From contig NZ_CP133597.1 of NCBI RefSeq assembly GCF_031200575.1, positions 1,612,001 through 1,676,000 of the forward strand: 64,000 nucleotides of DNA, given 5' to 3'. This DNA comes from Ferroplasma sp. (GTDB taxonomy: Archaea > Thermoplasmatota > Thermoplasmata > Thermoplasmatales > Thermoplasmataceae). A program made the position numbers and the translations under genes. This document shows, piece by piece, positions 28,508 through 60,002 of this stretch; within the stretch, counting starts at the first letter, position 1, and every line of letters begins with the position of its first letter. The notes below the pieces were generated by a model, which saw only the letters and a program-made list of their open reading frames with translations, was not told the DNA's origin and ran no database searches.

Positions 28508-28550
28508 TGAATTGGTTAATCCCGATTCTATCTCAGGAAGAATGCTTTTG

Positions 28551-28835
28551 CTATGAATCCATTTTGTTATGGGCCATAATAAAAATAAATCTTATAAATA
28601 AGAATAAAAGGCCTAAGAAGAGCGGATATATTATCCAATAGATGAACAGGTGCTGATACGATGCATTGTCTAATCTCTTTTCCAGAAAAAAGTTAAAAAT
28701 TGCTATGGCAATCGGTTCATAAAAACCAGGGATACTGCTATTACATCGAATGATCTTTTTATCTCTTGAGTTAAAGTTGATTTCATACTTCTGATGTTGG
28801 ATAGAGATTCTTAAATAAAAATATTTCCACTTCAT
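28551..28835 (-). CDS. Putative small membrane protein
   Basis: A 94-residue frame with one strong membrane segment near the C-terminus (residues about 62-88, IYWIIYPLFLGLLFLFIRFIFIM) after a basic, soluble start. The helix could support a real gene, but nothing else is known, and the frame might be chance in this AT-rich stretch. It is on the same strand as the overlapping pair at 29.1-30.4 kb, 245 bases downstream of it. Confidence 0.3.
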   Translation of the reverse strand: MKWKYFYLRISIQHQKYEINFNSRDKKIIRCNSSIPGFYEPIAIAIFNFFLEKRLDNASYQHLFIYWIIYPLFLGLLFLFIRFIFIMAHNKMDS

Positions 28836-29080
28836 GAGACATTGAGCATCGACCTCGTATAATAATTGTGTTTATCCTAACAGTTCCCTCCATCTATTTA
28901 ATGGGATATTATCCAGGATTCATTCATTGCACTGATATATTTTTTAGAATAATTCCTTTTATAGTTGAAAAACGATTCTCTTCCATATCCAGATTCGATT
29001 CCAACATGATTGGCTTTGTGATTATAAAAAAGTGACTGAAAACTCTATTAAATAAAAACCTGAACGTAGTTATTTATATC

Positions 29081-29569
29081 CTATCTGGTTATAAAAATAT
29101 ATATCATATAAAAGGTGAATGGCAAGAACAGAATAGAAAAAAGCACCAACAATAATTCAAAAATTCTGTTATATTTTTTGGTATATTTTTTTATATCGCT
29201 CTTATTATCTAATATTTTGCCATCTATTTTGTTAAAACTATTATATATATTTATGGCAATAAATTCGTATATTGTTGTCAAATAAAAAAATACGTATATA
29301 AATGGTGTCCTGTCCCAAAGGAAAAAACTCACTATATTATTTGCTATATAAAATATTGATATCCTGATTAAAAGGCTTTTAGATCTTTTCATGTCTAATT
29401 GCAGTGGTTTGCCGGGATATATAATAAATTTTATATGATAAAGATCATGAAACCATTTATAAAATACCCCGAAAGTAATGAAAAAAATTACAGCGAGAAA
29501 TACTATAAAAATAACATTCAGTCCGAATTCCATAAATCTCACCATGGAGGTTCTTCGAATGGATTCCAT
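29081..29569 (-). CDS. Four-helix membrane protein coupled to the secreted protein
   Basis: A 162-residue protein with four predicted membrane helices (about residues 14-38, 68-84, 87-109 and 135-160), separated by short basic loops such as KPLQLDMKRSKS and DIKKYTKKYNR. Its start lies inside the last 31 bases of the upstream gene (29539-30375) on the same strand, so translation is probably coupled. No known family is recognised. In this arrangement a small polytopic protein next to a secreted Ala-rich protein may act as a dedicated exporter or self-protection (immunity) protein, but this is only inference from order. Confidence 0.5.
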   Translation of the reverse strand: MESIRRTSMVRFMEFGLNVIFIVFLAVIFFITFGVFYKWFHDLYHIKFIIYPGKPLQLDMKRSKSLLIRISIFYIANNIVSFFLWDRTPFIYVFFYLTTIYEFIAINIYNSFNKIDGKILDNKSDIKKYTKKYNRIFELLLVLFSILFLPFTFYMIYIFITR

Positions 29570-30375
29570 ACACTTTTGTGAGGTGCCATGGCAAATAAGG
29601 GATTTTTACCGAATTTACCTCCGCCTATGGCAAGAGGAACATAGACCCCGCTACTATGCGAATCTGGAGAACCGGTAAATGCACCTTCTTCCCCATATGC
29701 ACCTATATCATAAAAATGCCACCATTGTGTATCCCAGCTTACCCCCAGATCAAAATATACAGTGGGGTCATGCTGTGTATCTGCATATATGTTAAGTGCT
29801 ACATAATCTGCAGCAAGAACTGCAATAACTGGTACGAGTGCTGAATCCGCCAGTGCGGCAAGAAAATCAGAAATTGCTCCTAGCAAGTTGCTACTTCCAG
29901 CAATTACTGCTTCCCCGAATACAGCAACTATATCAGCAGGTGAAGTTCCAGGAGATAATGCAGGAATCTTTATCACCGAAAGTACTGCTTCATGATTTTT
30001 AGGGAATTTATAATAGGTTCCTATGCAATCCCCAGAAACTTCCTTGAAATCCTTTGTACGCTTAACAGTCAAATTCAAATATATGCGATTTCCGTTTGAA
30101 TATACGGAAACAATACCATAGTTGCCGGTTTTAACTATGTGCTGGCTTTGCATGTAATTACCACTGTAGATGAATGTGAGGTTCATATTAATTTCTTGCC
30201 TACCGAAATGATATGTATAATTTTCAGTCTTTATCAACGATTGGTTTTGACCGGTAGTTAAGTCTCCTATCTGTGCCTTATTTGAAACGTGCATATTATC
30301 TGCTGCTGGAACCAGTGCCAGCATGATAAACATAACAGCCACAAAAACACCTATTATTATCCTCCTTTTATTCAT
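29539..30375 (-). CDS. Secreted Ala-rich protein of unknown function
   Basis: A 278-residue protein with an N-terminal signal peptide (basic NKRR, then IIIGVFVAVMFIMLALVPAA). Residues 25-130 have an Asn/Ser/Thr-rich beta pattern. Residues about 140-200 form a long Ala/Val/Leu-rich stretch (for example GSSNLLGAISDFLAALADS and VPVIAVLAADYVALNIYAD) that could insert into membranes. The C-terminal 75 residues are aromatic and Gly-rich (WDTQWWHFYDIGAYG). There is no lipobox or C-terminal anchor, so the mature protein is likely released or held by the Ala-rich segment. It overlaps the four-helix protein downstream. A toxin, bacteriocin-like or surface role is possible, but no family match is claimed. 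Confidence 0.6.
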   Translation of the reverse strand: MNKRRIIIGVFVAVMFIMLALVPAADNMHVSNKAQIGDLTTGQNQSLIKTENYTYHFGRQEINMNLTFIYSGNYMQSQHIVKTGNYGIVSVYSNGNRIYLNLTVKRTKDFKEVSGDCIGTYYKFPKNHEAVLSVIKIPALSPGTSPADIVAVFGEAVIAGSSNLLGAISDFLAALADSALVPVIAVLAADYVALNIYADTQHDPTVYFDLGVSWDTQWWHFYDIGAYGEEGAFTGSPDSHSSGVYVPLAIGGGKFGKNPLFAMAPHKSVWNPFEEPPW

Positions 30376-30699
30376 AATGATATCAATGCATGAATATATA
30401 TAACAATATTAATAAATAGTTTATAAGTTAAACATTTTAACTAGTATAAACCTAATTATTAAATTCAAATAATAATCATAGAGAAATTTAATAGTCAGTC
30501 AAGAAAAAGAGCATTTTAAAAAGATGATGCATAAGTTCATAAATAACAATATAAGTATGTAGATGATTAACCATAACTTCCATACCTACACTCCATAGAA
30601 AGTACACGTGAAGTGATAGAGTAAATACTGTTTTTGTTGCCTTAATCTTATATAAATAAGGAATTTAATATATAATAAAAAATAATCTCATAAAGAAAT
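30376..30699. other. Divergent intergenic region
   Basis: A 324-base AT-rich stretch separates the secreted-protein gene (leftward) and the MFS gene (rightward). Both ends contain TATA-like runs (TATATATAACAATATT near 30394-30409; TAATATATAATAAAAAATA near 30666-30684). No open frame with coding character is seen. Confidence 0.5.
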
Positions 30700-31875: not shown

Positions 31876-31931
31876 GGCATTGTTCTCCCGGGAAGCCTAT
31901 GGGATTTGCAAGGTAAATACATTTTTCAATA

Positions 31932-32006
31932 CGGGCTCGGTGGGATTTGGACCCACGATCACCGACTTAGAAGGACGGTGCCTTATCCATACTAGGCCAC
32001 GAGCCC
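31932..32006 (-). tRNA. tRNA-Arg (anticodon UCU)
   Basis: Read on the minus strand, the acceptor stem pairs GGGCTCG (32006-32000) with CGAGCCC (31939-31933), all seven pairs matched, followed by discriminator G. The D stem is GCCT/AGGC; the T arm is GTGGGTCCAAATCCCAC. The anticodon loop CTTCTAA gives anticodon TCT (AGA codon). The anticodon stem CCGTC/GTCGG holds a T-T mismatch at positions 30 and 40; the other four pairs are good. No intron or encoded CCA. The mismatch is unusual but tRNAs with one are known. Confidence 0.92.
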
Positions 32007-32096
32007 GCTTCCAATATTTTAGGATATAATATAAGTATTTCTATGGTGTCACCCTGTGGTGCAGATTTTTATACTTTATTCAAATGACCGGTTACC

Positions 32097-56724: not shown

Positions 56725-58299
56725 ATGCATAATAGATTTAAAATCTTTATATCCATGGTGGTGGTTGCAATGTTTTTGGGAACGGGGCTTGCATCAGGCA
56801 GGGGAACGGCAGACAGAACCAGCAGCAATGCAGCCGGGGAACTGTCCCCTGCATTTGGTGAGGTTGTAAATACATGGTCACTGTCAGGGAGAACATGTGC
56901 ACCATCATCTGCAAGCCCAGGGATCACTGTTGCACTGAAAATAGATGTAACATCATTTTCTGAATCATCAGGCGCCGGGCCAACAGTAATGTATTTCGTT
57001 GTCAATGGGAAAAGGATACATTCAACAGATGTTGATGGGACAGGCGTATATACATATAACTGGTCACCTGGATATGCAAACACAACAGTAAACTTCCATG
57101 CTGAGTACCTTTCCGGTTCAGAATTTATGGAAAAACCATCTATGCACTATGCTGAAAGAAGGCCCATGGTATTCTTCAGGAATTCATACTCCACATTCGG
57201 GAATTCAGACATATACATAACATGGCTGCAGGACTGCCACAGGTATATGGGATATGAAGGGAACAATAAGATATATTTAAGCACGGGTTCAGGTAGTTTT
57301 TATAAAATTTATAACATAGAAATAGTCGGGAAGTCTAATGATGTATATAAAAGGTCATCTAATTTATGTACATCAAACGATAGCACCATAGAGGCCATAA
57401 CATCTTACGGAGATTCATGCTATGATTCCTCTTTGCAGATTAATATTAACCTTACATCAATAAGCGAGGGCAATTATTATATGCCCACTAATGGAGAGTA
57501 TTCCGGTTTATGGAAGGAATATATTGATGTAAATACAAATGCTCCATCAAGTATAGCACCCGGAATTACAAATGATATACAGACAGCATATAATAATGGT
57601 TTCAATATTTCAACAGATTCAGGTAATAGGGGAACCATAATAGACCATGATGTATGCTCATTAATGCTCGATGGCCTATCACTCATACCAGTAGCAGGAT
57701 ATGCAGCAACTGCAATAAGTGCTGCAAGCACAACAGCTAATTTAATAAGTACAGTATCATCTAAAAACAGTCCTCCTGGGACAACTGATAATAAAATAGC
57801 TGGAATAGAATACTGCCTTAATGGGGATCATGTTCTATTTGGTGCAGGCACCGTTGATGAGATAGATGTGCCACATTCGGACCTTAACCATAATTTTTCC
57901 ATAACGGTGAAATATTATAATGAGTATATGTGTGATGGTAACACAATAACTCCATTTAAAACAGCATCAACTACACAGACTTTGAATGCTGTAACAGCAT
58001 CTGCTATATACGGAACAGTGGGACTAAAACCCGGATGTTCGGATAATAATAACGATTATGATACATCACTTAATTCAACAATTTACATAAAGGATGTTAA
58101 AAGTGGTAACTTCTATAAAGTTCCTATTAAAGACGGGAAATATTTATTCTTTGCAGAGCCAAATACTAAATATGAATTACTTTATTATGATAAATCCAAT
58201 GAAGGATTTAAAAATTTTAAAAATAGTTCCGGTTCAACAATATCGTATGTAGAATCTCGCAGTCCTGGAGACTCAGTTCCTACCGATATATTTATGTGA
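56725..58299 (+). CDS. Large secreted protein, first of a tandem paralog family
   Basis: A 524-residue protein with signal peptide (FKIFISMVVVAMFLGTGLA) and no obvious C-terminal anchor. It is rich in Ser, Thr, Asn, Gly and Tyr. It has eight or more Cys in spaced positions, which suggests disulfides outside the cell. Residues about 295-345 contain an Ala-rich hydrophobic stretch (SLIPVAGYAATAISAASTT) similar in style to that of the secreted protein at 29.5 kb. The last 110 residues (from SAIYGTVGLKPGCSDNNND) are shared with the next gene. The first 300 bases are richer in G and C than the rest, hinting at mosaic origin. Function unknown. Confidence 0.65.
   Translation: MHNRFKIFISMVVVAMFLGTGLASGRGTADRTSSNAAGELSPAFGEVVNTWSLSGRTCAPSSASPGITVALKIDVTSFSESSGAGPTVMYFVVNGKRIHSTDVDGTGVYTYNWSPGYANTTVNFHAEYLSGSEFMEKPSMHYAERRPMVFFRNSYSTFGNSDIYITWLQDCHRYMGYEGNNKIYLSTGSGSFYKIYNIEIVGKSNDVYKRSSNLCTSNDSTIEAITSYGDSCYDSSLQININLTSISEGNYYMPTNGEYSGLWKEYIDVNTNAPSSIAPGITNDIQTAYNNGFNISTDSGNRGTIIDHDVCSLMLDGLSLIPVAGYAATAISAASTTANLISTVSSKNSPPGTTDNKIAGIEYCLNGDHVLFGAGTVDEIDVPHSDLNHNFSITVKYYNEYMCDGNTITPFKTASTTQTLNAVTASAIYGTVGLKPGCSDNNNDYDTSLNSTIYIKDVKSGNFYKVPIKDGKYLFFAEPNTKYELLYYDKSNEGFKNFKNSSGSTISYVESRSPGDSVPTDIFM
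58035..58073 (+). repeat. 39-base direct repeat, copy 1
   Basis: In the C-terminal domain of the first secreted gene; identical to 58922-58960. It encodes the Cys-Ser-Asp-Asn-Asn-Asn loop. Confidence 0.85.
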
Positions 58300-59180
58300 T
58301 TTATATGGTTAACATCAAATCCCATTACAAGATGATAATTGCGATTATAATTGTTGTGATATTAGTATCATCCCTAAGTATATACTTCTATCCACATAAT
58401 GATACAGAGTACTACAACAATGGAAAGAGTGTTGATGTAAGATACTTCAACTGTGAAAGTTATGAATACTGCAGGAATAATAGCTATAATGTATCATCAT
58501 ATTCCATAAATAATAATAAAGTAGAATACCTTAATTCCACAATGATGAATGTATTTTATGCGGATGTTCCAGGAGGTAATGAGTTTTCATTCACCATGAA
58601 TATGCATATTAAAGGCATAAATGCAAGGTATGTTTATGTTACTGTAACAGGTGATAATAATACACAGTACCTTGAAACAAATGTTTTTGCAGGCTCCAAT
58701 GCAACGTCATATGAAACCTCCAGTGACAGCAGTGTAATAAGGATTAATGCAACTGAGAACTTGAATGGATATGAATTCAGCATCTCAGATATGAATGCTT
58801 ATGTAAGGAATGGTGTTTATAATTTCACTGTTAAGGTATCTGCAGGTAAATTGTATAATGTATTCTATATTGATACATTAAAGGAGAGTGCTGTATACGG
58901 GACAGTAGGATTAAAACCTGAATGTTCGGATAATAATAACGATTATGATACATCACTTAACTCCACTATGTTTGTTTACAACAATAGTACAGGAAGATAC
59001 AATATTGTAAATATAAGGGATGGGAGGTTTTATTTCTTTACAGTTCCTGGTGATTTATATAAAATGTATTATTTAAACAATAATAATTTAACATTGTTTA
59101 AGTACAATGATGGTAAAAATATTACATTGATTAACACTCCATTAAAAATAGAATCAATGCAGTATAATATTTACGAGTGA
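58296..59180 (+). CDS. Membrane-anchored secreted paralog 2
   Basis: A protein of about 290 residues (GTG at 58296 overlaps the previous stop by four bases; ATG at 58305 is the alternative start). The N-terminal helix (YKMIIAIIIVVILVSSLSIY) is an uncleaved anchor or signal. The following 170 residues are beta-rich and full of Asn-x-Ser/Thr sites. The C-terminal domain SAVYGTVGLKPECSDNNND is almost identical to that of the first gene, and 39 bases in it (58922-58960) are identical to 58035-58073. Cys are few and spaced like in the family. Function unknown. Confidence 0.65.
   Translation: MIYMVNIKSHYKMIIAIIIVVILVSSLSIYFYPHNDTEYYNNGKSVDVRYFNCESYEYCRNNSYNVSSYSINNNKVEYLNSTMMNVFYADVPGGNEFSFTMNMHIKGINARYVYVTVTGDNNTQYLETNVFAGSNATSYETSSDSSVIRINATENLNGYEFSISDMNAYVRNGVYNFTVKVSAGKLYNVFYIDTLKESAVYGTVGLKPECSDNNNDYDTSLNSTMFVYNNSTGRYNIVNIRDGRFYFFTVPGDLYKMYYLNNNNLTLFKYNDGKNITLINTPLKIESMQYNIYE
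58317..58366 (+). repeat. 50-base direct repeat, copy 1
   Basis: Encodes the anchor helix start of paralog 2 and is identical to 59196-59245. The identity at silent codon positions means recent duplication or gene conversion. Confidence 0.85.
58922..58960 (+). repeat. 39-base direct repeat, copy 2
   Basis: In the C-terminal domain of paralog 2; identical to 58035-58073. Confidence 0.85.
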
Positions 59181-59186
59181 TTTCAC

Positions 59187-60002
59187 ATGAATCTAAAATC
59201 CCATTACAAGATGATAATTGCGATTATAATTGTTGTGATATTAGTCTCTAGCATGGCAATTTACTTCTATCCCCATAATAATACACATTACTATAATAAT
59301 GGAGACAGCATCCATTTCCTTTATGCTGGTACTGATGTTATACATGATTACAGGGAATACAACTGCAGTGTCTCCTCATATTCTGTAGGGAATGGAAAAC
59401 CATCATACCTCAATTCAACAGCCCTGATTGAACGCTCCTATTCCTCCTGTACACTGGGACAGATATCATTCAATATGAATATAAAGACACACAATATAAA
59501 TAGTGGCAATATTAGGGTGTCAATATCTGCCAACCACTTCTGTGCAGACCTTACATACAAAAATAAAGAATATTTCAATGATTACCCCAGGGGCGTTTCC
59601 ATTCTAATAGGTAATACAGGAAATGTAAATATTAGTGGCATTATGTTTGGGTTCCATCCTAATGATACAAGAACTGTTATAACAGTATCATCAGGCAAAT
59701 TGACAAATACATACTACATAACAACACAGGTACAGAGTGCTGTATACGGCCATGTTGATTATACCGGCACATACAATATAGACAGGGTAAATGGCGAGTT
59801 TATTATGGAAAACGAAAACAATTCACATATGAATATAGTAGATGTACATAATGGATACTATTATTATTTTGTCCATCCTGATACAGGATACAGAATATAC
59901 TCAATAAAAAATAGTACATTGAAACAAATAGGGACAATTGGAAATAAAACAATATCCAGTGGAAGCAGCTACCGTTATGTAATATGTAGTGATGACTTAT
60001 GA
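59187..60002 (+). CDS. Membrane-anchored secreted paralog 3
   Basis: A 271-residue paralog of the gene before it. Its N-terminal anchor (MNLKSHYKMIIAIIIVVILV) is encoded by 50 bases identical to those of paralog 2 (59196-59245 and 58317-58366). The middle domain has diverged strongly, and the C-terminal SAVYGHVDYTGTYNID domain is related but lacks the shared Asn-rich loop. It begins 6 bases after the previous stop and its own stop overlaps the next degraded copy. So the array has conserved ends and variable centres. Function unknown. Confidence 0.65.
   Translation: MNLKSHYKMIIAIIIVVILVSSMAIYFYPHNNTHYYNNGDSIHFLYAGTDVIHDYREYNCSVSSYSVGNGKPSYLNSTALIERSYSSCTLGQISFNMNIKTHNINSGNIRVSISANHFCADLTYKNKEYFNDYPRGVSILIGNTGNVNISGIMFGFHPNDTRTVITVSSGKLTNTYYITTQVQSAVYGHVDYTGTYNIDRVNGEFIMENENNSHMNIVDVHNGYYYYFVHPDTGYRIYSIKNSTLKQIGTIGNKTISSGSSYRYVICSDDL
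59196..59245 (+). repeat. 50-base direct repeat, copy 2
   Basis: Copy of 58317-58366 at the start of paralog 3. Confidence 0.85.

Follow-up and report, generated by a model that had tools for sequence, protein, structure and literature searches.

A candidate lineage-specific toxin/immunity system of exchangeable gene cassettes in Ferroplasma

We analyzed a pair of adjacent minus-strand genes in a 64,000-nucleotide stretch of DNA from Ferroplasma sp. (contig NZ_CP133597.1, positions 1,612,001 to 1,676,000; referred to below as the window), whose genome is a single contig of 1.86 Mb. The first gene, SEC (29539 to 30375), encodes a secreted-type protein of 278 amino acids (aa), and the second, MEM (29081 to 29569), encodes a 162-aa four-helix membrane protein; both open reading frames (ORFs) are intact. 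We propose, with a probability that we put at about 0.72, that SEC is a toxin and MEM its immunity protein and that the pair is one of the cassettes of a polymorphic toxin/immunity (archaeocin-like) system specific to the lineage of Ferroplasma and its family. In such a system, a constant 5' module consisting of a promoter, a 5' untranslated region (5'-UTR), and a signal peptide would serve a variable secreted toxin, and the C-terminal part of the toxin would be exchanged as a unit with the gene directly behind it. Genomes and loci are designated here by G and L numbers (G000 is the genome of the window), and SEC-type proteins are assigned to lettered classes, with SEC in class A.

A shared 5' module and class-specific partner genes

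By a hydropathy scale, the SEC N terminus carries a hydrophobic segment, and its first 26 residues (30298 to 30375) form a signal-peptide-like leader that matches profile A1, which includes this sequence, at an E value of 2.3e-17. Past the leader, the 21-mer of highest hydropathy (mean, 1.91) is an Ala/Val/Leu-rich segment at residues 167 to 187 (29815 to 29877). Residues 202 to 278 (29542 to 29772) make up an aromatic C-terminal module, which ends in WNPFEEPPW, is conserved in an alignment of 19 sequences, and holds all nine invariant columns of that alignment (Y207, S213, G225, Y227, G228, G231, G243, W270, and P276); in the last 100 residues of SEC, 17 are Trp, Tyr, or Phe. MEM has four hydrophobic segments by the same scale, and its AlphaFold2 model contains four long helices at modest confidence (predicted local distance difference test [pLDDT] score, 69.6; predicted template modeling [pTM] score, 0.49). 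These features bear out an earlier, sequence-only reading of the window, which had described a secreted protein with an Ala/Val/Leu-rich stretch and an aromatic C terminus next to a four-helix membrane protein. The same reading had the two genes overlapping and translationally coupled. The overlap is 31 bp if the first ATG is taken as the MEM start, but the alternative in-frame ATG codons at 29545 and 29533 leave 7 bp or none, and, given these alternatives, we consider coupling likely. The ratio of nonsynonymous to synonymous substitution rates (dN/dS) relative to the closest relative, in G065, is 0.10 for SEC and 0.22 to 0.28 for MEM, rough values since synonymous divergence (dS) is 0.9 to 1.6, and these low ratios fit maintained genes under purifying selection.

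The putative promoter/5'-UTR module directly upstream of SEC (30376 to 30440, minus strand) aligned with 16 other upstream regions, and these 65 bp before the start codon are conserved across C-terminal types. A core pattern of the upstream region, derived from the family, has one match in the 64-kb window, with 0 mismatches, and none in 100 shuffles, and upstream model R1 matches the SEC site, which is one of its training sequences, at an E value of 4.8e-8. The upstream-region model, which covers 65 bp of sequence and was built from 17 training sites, gave 36 matches at an E value of ≤1e-6 in 10 genomes, 16 of them training sites. By our own reading, these matches precede 33 leader-type frames (several of them broken), 1 probable relic, and, in 2 cases, an unrelated gene. 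A search with the leader, taken from residues 1 to 34 of SEC and eleven relatives, matched all 10 genomes of the genus, 8 of them at E values below 1e-9 and two (G067 and G068) weakly, at about 0.003; the proteins behind this leader range from about 150 to 620 aa. The upstream model also led to pairs that had escaped the leader search or received weak scores in it (L186, L189, and L191; L195, with an E value of 1.7e-4).

We compared 32 C-terminal parts, all against all. Classes A, B, and K were joined (best E value, 2e-10), as were classes D, I, and J (best E value, 1e-8), which rules out that all C-terminal types are mutually unrelated. Classes C, E, F, G, and H and the types found at L102, L107, and L154 remain separate at an E value of ≤1e-5, although weaker links exist (the best, 5e-5, from B to E). 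Counted after joining at this threshold, there are nine C-terminal groups in the genus, all nine of which are served by the leader and/or the upstream region and seven by the upstream region at an E value of ≤1e-6. SEC itself has only the leader and upstream region in common with the other groups. In another genus of the family, the leaders are different (10 to 27% identical to those of Ferroplasma class A), yet they are again shared between classes A and C (70% and 63% identical). Thus, the leader follows the lineage, and the C-terminal type crosses lineages.

A small membrane gene lies just behind 32 of 36 SEC-type genes, compared with 11 of the 368 remaining genes at those loci (Fisher P, ~1e-33). 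To qualify, a partner had to be 60 to 210 aa long, have at least two hydrophobic segments, and start within 60 nucleotides of the stop codon of the secreted gene, and near-identical orthologous loci (L041, L060, L065 or L061, L063, L108, L112) were removed before both counts. The list of 36 was assembled by hand from SEC-type genes with a readable C-terminal end; it omits classes F, G (except the L107 type), and H, whose partners are 185 to 302 aa long with one or two segments, and L151, L153, L154, and L195 are absent from it. By inspection, at least 3 of the 11 background cases (L053, L151, and L154) are themselves toxin-type genes. With a different ORF picker, the counts were 24 of 42 versus a background of 10 of 380. 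Intact secreted genes that seemed to have no partner (L042, L044, L061, and L065) proved to be an artifact of ORF picking, as their partners are open in an overlapping frame.

The partners are also specific to the class of the secreted protein. Among 46 partner proteins compared, 64 of the 72 matches at an E value of ≤0.01 fall within one toxin class, and the 8 between-class matches are weak (best, 3e-5). By sequence, MEM has relatives in 2 of 117 genomes of the order, its own counted, while SEC has relatives in 17 of the same 117; among 400 genomes sampled from the taxonomic class, the SEC profile matches 20, all within its own family, a number that includes its own genome, relics, and leader-only matches. 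MEM is nonetheless linked to other class A partners, strongly to one and weakly to some others (E values of 4.6e-57 for the G065 partner and 3.7e-4 for the partner in F. acidarmanus Fer1, which has a different class A pair), and the gene neighborhoods together with the partner comparison rule out that it is not co-conserved. Judged from these comparisons, the MEM-type partner is diverging fast and not absent, and the co-conservation of the pair on which the sequence-only reading depended is found.

The common upstream region and leader and the small membrane partner would also suit a secreted, pheromone-like signal precursor, with MEM as its receptor, protease, or exporter. We regard this as extremely improbable, because the parts behind the leader span about 130 to 590 aa and differ by group, because the partners are group specific although the leader they would have to handle is the same, and because neither MEM nor any of ten other partners scanned has a Pfam match above the curated cut-off.

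Cassette exchange, stranded partners, and decay

Two comparisons show a C-terminal part exchanged in place along with its partner. In G064, loci L102 and L104 match at 98.5% over a 930-bp stretch that begins 188 bp upstream and ends near codon 247, beyond which no identity is detectable. Their N-terminal parts are identical at 243 of 245 residues, and both their C termini (z, 0.7) and their adjacent partners (z, −0.6) are unrelated. L104 has its C-terminal type and its partner in common with L103 (200 of 256 and 138 of 194 residues identical, respectively), and an open 195-aa gene of the L104-partner kind sits behind the new partner at L102, which we read as a probable immunity gene left from the displaced cassette. 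The second comparison concerns one locus in two near-identical genomes, G060 (L062) and G061 (L066), where 6,044 bp match at 96.1%, into the toxin gene to about codon 193. Past that point, the two toxins agree at 75 of 195 columns with gaps counted (38%), their adjacent partners do not match, and the flank aligns again at 94.2%; the longest matches in three other regions of these two genomes are 97.4 to 100% identical. G060 also has, stranded downstream of its new partner, a 110-aa gene of the G061-partner family. Stranded or arrayed partner genes are found, in all, at L102, L062, L186, and L194. Inspection of gene tables revealed other slots with different types by species: one flank has class A in two genomes (G066 and G064) and class C in two others (G060 and G061), and a second slot has class D in the latter two but relics of class B in G000 and G067.

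We also found 10 loci in which the secreted gene is broken, truncated, or gone and the partner is open (L038, L050, L054, L055, L117, L147, L148, L153, L187, and L194; at L038, the partner is open up to the contig end), versus none with an intact secreted gene and a broken partner, in a hand tally rather than a systematic screen. Further secreted genes look truncated at the 5' end (L045, L047, L052, and L057), both members of the pair are broken at L145, and L043, which is without a partner, has an end that by eye resembles part of the transposase-like gene of L191. We take the decay bias towards the secreted gene as supporting evidence.

These data also bear on a different role for the pair, in which SEC would be a variable surface or adhesion protein, MEM would be its anchor or assembly partner, and swapping would diversify antigens or virus receptors. 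SEC is indeed secreted-type, variable, lineage specific, and usually accompanied by a membrane partner. There is also a precedent in the VARTIG modules of Thermococcales, in which, according to PMC8416519, a variable surface protein that is secreted is followed by class-matched membrane proteins; those proteins are large and have multiple Ig domains, whereas no Pfam domain was found in SEC and its 18 aligned relatives. We nevertheless consider a surface role unlikely, since old-type partners outlast a secreted gene that was lost or replaced (L102, L062, L194, and L187), which an anchor without cargo does not explain, and several different types co-occur within single genomes. Taken together, the swapping, the stranded partners, the empty sites described below, and the decay bias fit a toxin and its immunity protein better than a surface or export role, and so favor the first of the layouts that the sequence-only reading had offered.

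The genome of the window itself contains toxin relics, of classes A, B, and G, at L043, L145, and L187, and the class G partner at L187 is still open. It also has a second apparently intact pair, L191 (G000:C1, around 1056000), which combines a class H secreted protein with a 278-aa, two-segment partner behind the same upstream region and adjoins a transposase-like gene. Downstream of another class H pair, at L185, are genes for an ABC ATPase (PF00005) and for a six-segment protein that has no Pfam match, perhaps forming a dedicated transporter.

The insertion slot in the window

The SEC-MEM pair lies within a segment of about 2.1 kb (approximately 28528 to 30650) between flanks that extend up to 28.53 kb and from 30.65 kb. 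In G065, G067, and G068, these flanks are 80 to 205 bp apart and the pair is not at this place. The pair was thus gained by the window as a single segment. The same slot in G062, bounded by a histidine phosphatase gene and by a tRNA gene and a DnaJ-domain gene, is occupied by a class J pair whose upstream region matches (81% over 59 bp). ARAGORN places a tRNA-Arg (TCT) gene at 31931 to 32007 on the minus strand, and the slot between it and the histidine phosphatase gene is a small hotspot (L196, L197, L198, and L199), empty in three species and occupied by class A in the window and by class J in G062.

We considered whether mobile elements or proviruses carry the cassettes as cargo, with SEC acting for the element as fusellovirus toxins do when they inhibit uninfected cells, and judge this very improbable. 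The insertion, with its empty sites and a tRNA gene nearby, speaks for such cargo, and several other loci adjoin genes that on inspection look like transposases. The fusellovirus toxins (SSV1 ORF a291 and SSV9 ORF b310) are also similar in design, as PMC13431529 describes them as secreted proteins of about 300 aa that conserve mainly the signal peptide and diverge over the remainder, and it shows growth inhibition by the SSV1 toxin. Unlike SEC, they are virus encoded and have a hydrolase-like predicted fold, and the word "immunity" is absent from the text of that paper. However, SEC has no credible relative among phage, plasmid, and virus records or viral contigs; the inserted segment is only ~2.1 kb long; and the six flanking window genes that we scanned against Pfam encode MFS transporters, a histidine phosphatase, a DnaJ-domain protein, and a beta-CASP nuclease-type protein.

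A 94-aa ORF with one hydrophobic segment (28551 to 28835, minus strand) also lies in the inserted segment, although its membership is uncertain. It matched only itself in 32 sequences (part of the window and L038 to L068) and had no significant match to the 46 partners; it may be left over from an older partner gene.

Elsewhere in the window, on the plus strand at 56725 to 60002, a gene for a 524-aa secreted-type protein overlaps one for a 294-aa protein, which is followed by one for a 271-aa protein, and by eye these have a C-terminal stretch (AVYG..) in common. The sequence-only reading had likened these proteins to SEC for their Ala-rich stretch. That resemblance is present and loose, but neither the leader nor the upstream model matches there, and they are at most possible members of the SEC-type system. 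Their layout, a long secreted protein with single-pass neighbors, resembles that of class G, and the two of the three that we scanned belong to no Pfam family.

Known systems and a proposed mode of action

Searches of Pfam, NCBIfam, PHROGs, PADLOC, and PDB sequences returned nothing credible for SEC, its 19-member alignment, or MEM, in agreement with the earlier view that the membrane protein has no known family, and no enzyme or S-layer family matched SEC or its alignment above noise. Across SEC and the other classes, there was no Pfam or NCBIfam match at the curated cut-off and none below an E value of 0.04 in PADLOC or PHROGs, and a Foldseek search with the MEM model gave no match below an E value of 0.9. 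A lactococcin-972-like identity for class E, suggested by a Thr/Ser/Trp-rich part at L068 and L110, was an impression that Pfam and NCBIfam did not support for L068.

Since no known delivery or toxin domain was recognized, we liken the system to polymorphic toxins and do not place it in a named family. Polymorphic toxins likewise have a constant N-terminal part, a variable C terminus, an adjacent group-specific partner, stranded partners, and exchange of the C terminus in place. In those systems, however, the constant part is a large delivery protein, whereas here it is the upstream region and leader (plus ~220 aa in class G), and the Ferroplasma set further differs in that it has no known toxin domain and in that many of its partners are multi-pass membrane proteins. 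Makarova et al. reportedly surveyed archaeal polymorphic toxin systems and archaeocins in 2019 and may have listed some of these genes. That study is cited for such toxins and archaeocins in PMC8416519 and PMC12352652.

The archaeocins (sulfolobicins and halocins) resemble what we propose as archaeal antagonistic proteins and are likened to it by description only. Halocin C8, whose mature peptide is cysteine rich, differs from SEC, which has one Cys after residue 35, and there is no family match between them. Sulfolobicins come from thermoacidophiles and are reported to act on close relatives (PMC4609331). According to a Thermoplasmatales genome study (PMC10354927), neither antiSMASH nor BACTIBASE detected secondary-metabolite or bacteriocin loci in the E-plasma genome. 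No secreted toxin/immunity system of Ferroplasma or Thermoplasmatales appears among the titles listed in the literature searched, which leaves out most subscription papers.

The classes differ in the hydrophobicity of the secreted protein and in partner topology. Classes A to D, I, J, and K have a hydrophobic 21-mer past the leader (mean hydropathy, 1.7 to 2.6) and small multi-pass partners. The best 21-mer scores 0.2 to 1.3 in classes E, F, and H and the L102 and L107 types and 1.3 to 1.6 in class G. With one or two hydrophobic segments in 185 to 302 aa, the partners of F, G, H, and L102 should each lie mostly off the membrane. Multi-pass immunity proteins are a feature of pore-forming bacteriocins and colicins, and the classes with a hydrophobic 21-mer resemble these in combining a hydrophobic segment in the secreted protein with a small multi-pass partner; they differ in that no sequence match was found and the MEM model has no fold match.

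Ferroplasma cells are wall-less and live in strong acid. We infer that SEC would be exported and that its Ala-rich hydrophobic segment and aromatic tail probably insert into, or act at, the membrane of neighboring wall-less relatives, with MEM in the membrane of the producer blocking it. By analogy with pore-forming bacteriocins, it is simplest to suppose that SEC acts on or within the membrane of the target and that MEM would protect the producer there; toxicity, and close relatives as the targets, are likewise presumed. A broader version, to which we give even odds, is that Ferroplasma has a weapon system in which any secreted toxin can be plugged in behind a constant promoter and signal peptide. 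Cassettes of about nine toxin groups, each with cognate immunity genes, would replace one another at a small number of chromosomal slots. The groups with a hydrophobic segment, including SEC, would be membrane-permeabilizing toxins, each blocked by a small multi-pass immunity protein, and most of the soluble groups (F, G, and H) would use partners with large ectodomains.

Several points weigh against the toxin/immunity proposal. The absence of a recognized delivery or toxin domain is one, and another is that the swaps observed are in classes C and G, with none in class A itself. For 4 of the 36 secreted genes, there is no qualifying partner; L038 reaches the end of its contig, the next genes at L147 and L047 score one hydrophobic segment, and L049 has none and is at a contig edge. 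The upstream-model match at L192 (in two orthologous copies) is the one that precedes an unrelated gene. By our own arithmetic, the 10-to-0 decay bias has a chance of ~0.03 if the partner makes up ~29% of the pair length; the secreted gene is 2 to 3 times longer, and several of the stops are in draft assemblies, where errors may add stops. Membrane segments were called by a hydropathy scale rather than a trained predictor, and the AlphaFold2 model of SEC, built from three sequences, is unusable (pLDDT, 32). Finally, class E and the L107 type are without a strong hydrophobic segment yet have small multi-pass partners, so toxin hydrophobicity and partner topology are not strictly linked.

To our knowledge, antagonism among archaea is poorly known. 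If the proposal is correct, these cassettes would provide a compact, testable arsenal in culturable organisms. Several families of likely toxins and likely immunity proteins would be new, and archaea would offer a clear example of toxins being exchanged while immunity genes are retained. From a biophysical standpoint, proteins able to attack tetraether membranes in strong acid would be of interest as well.
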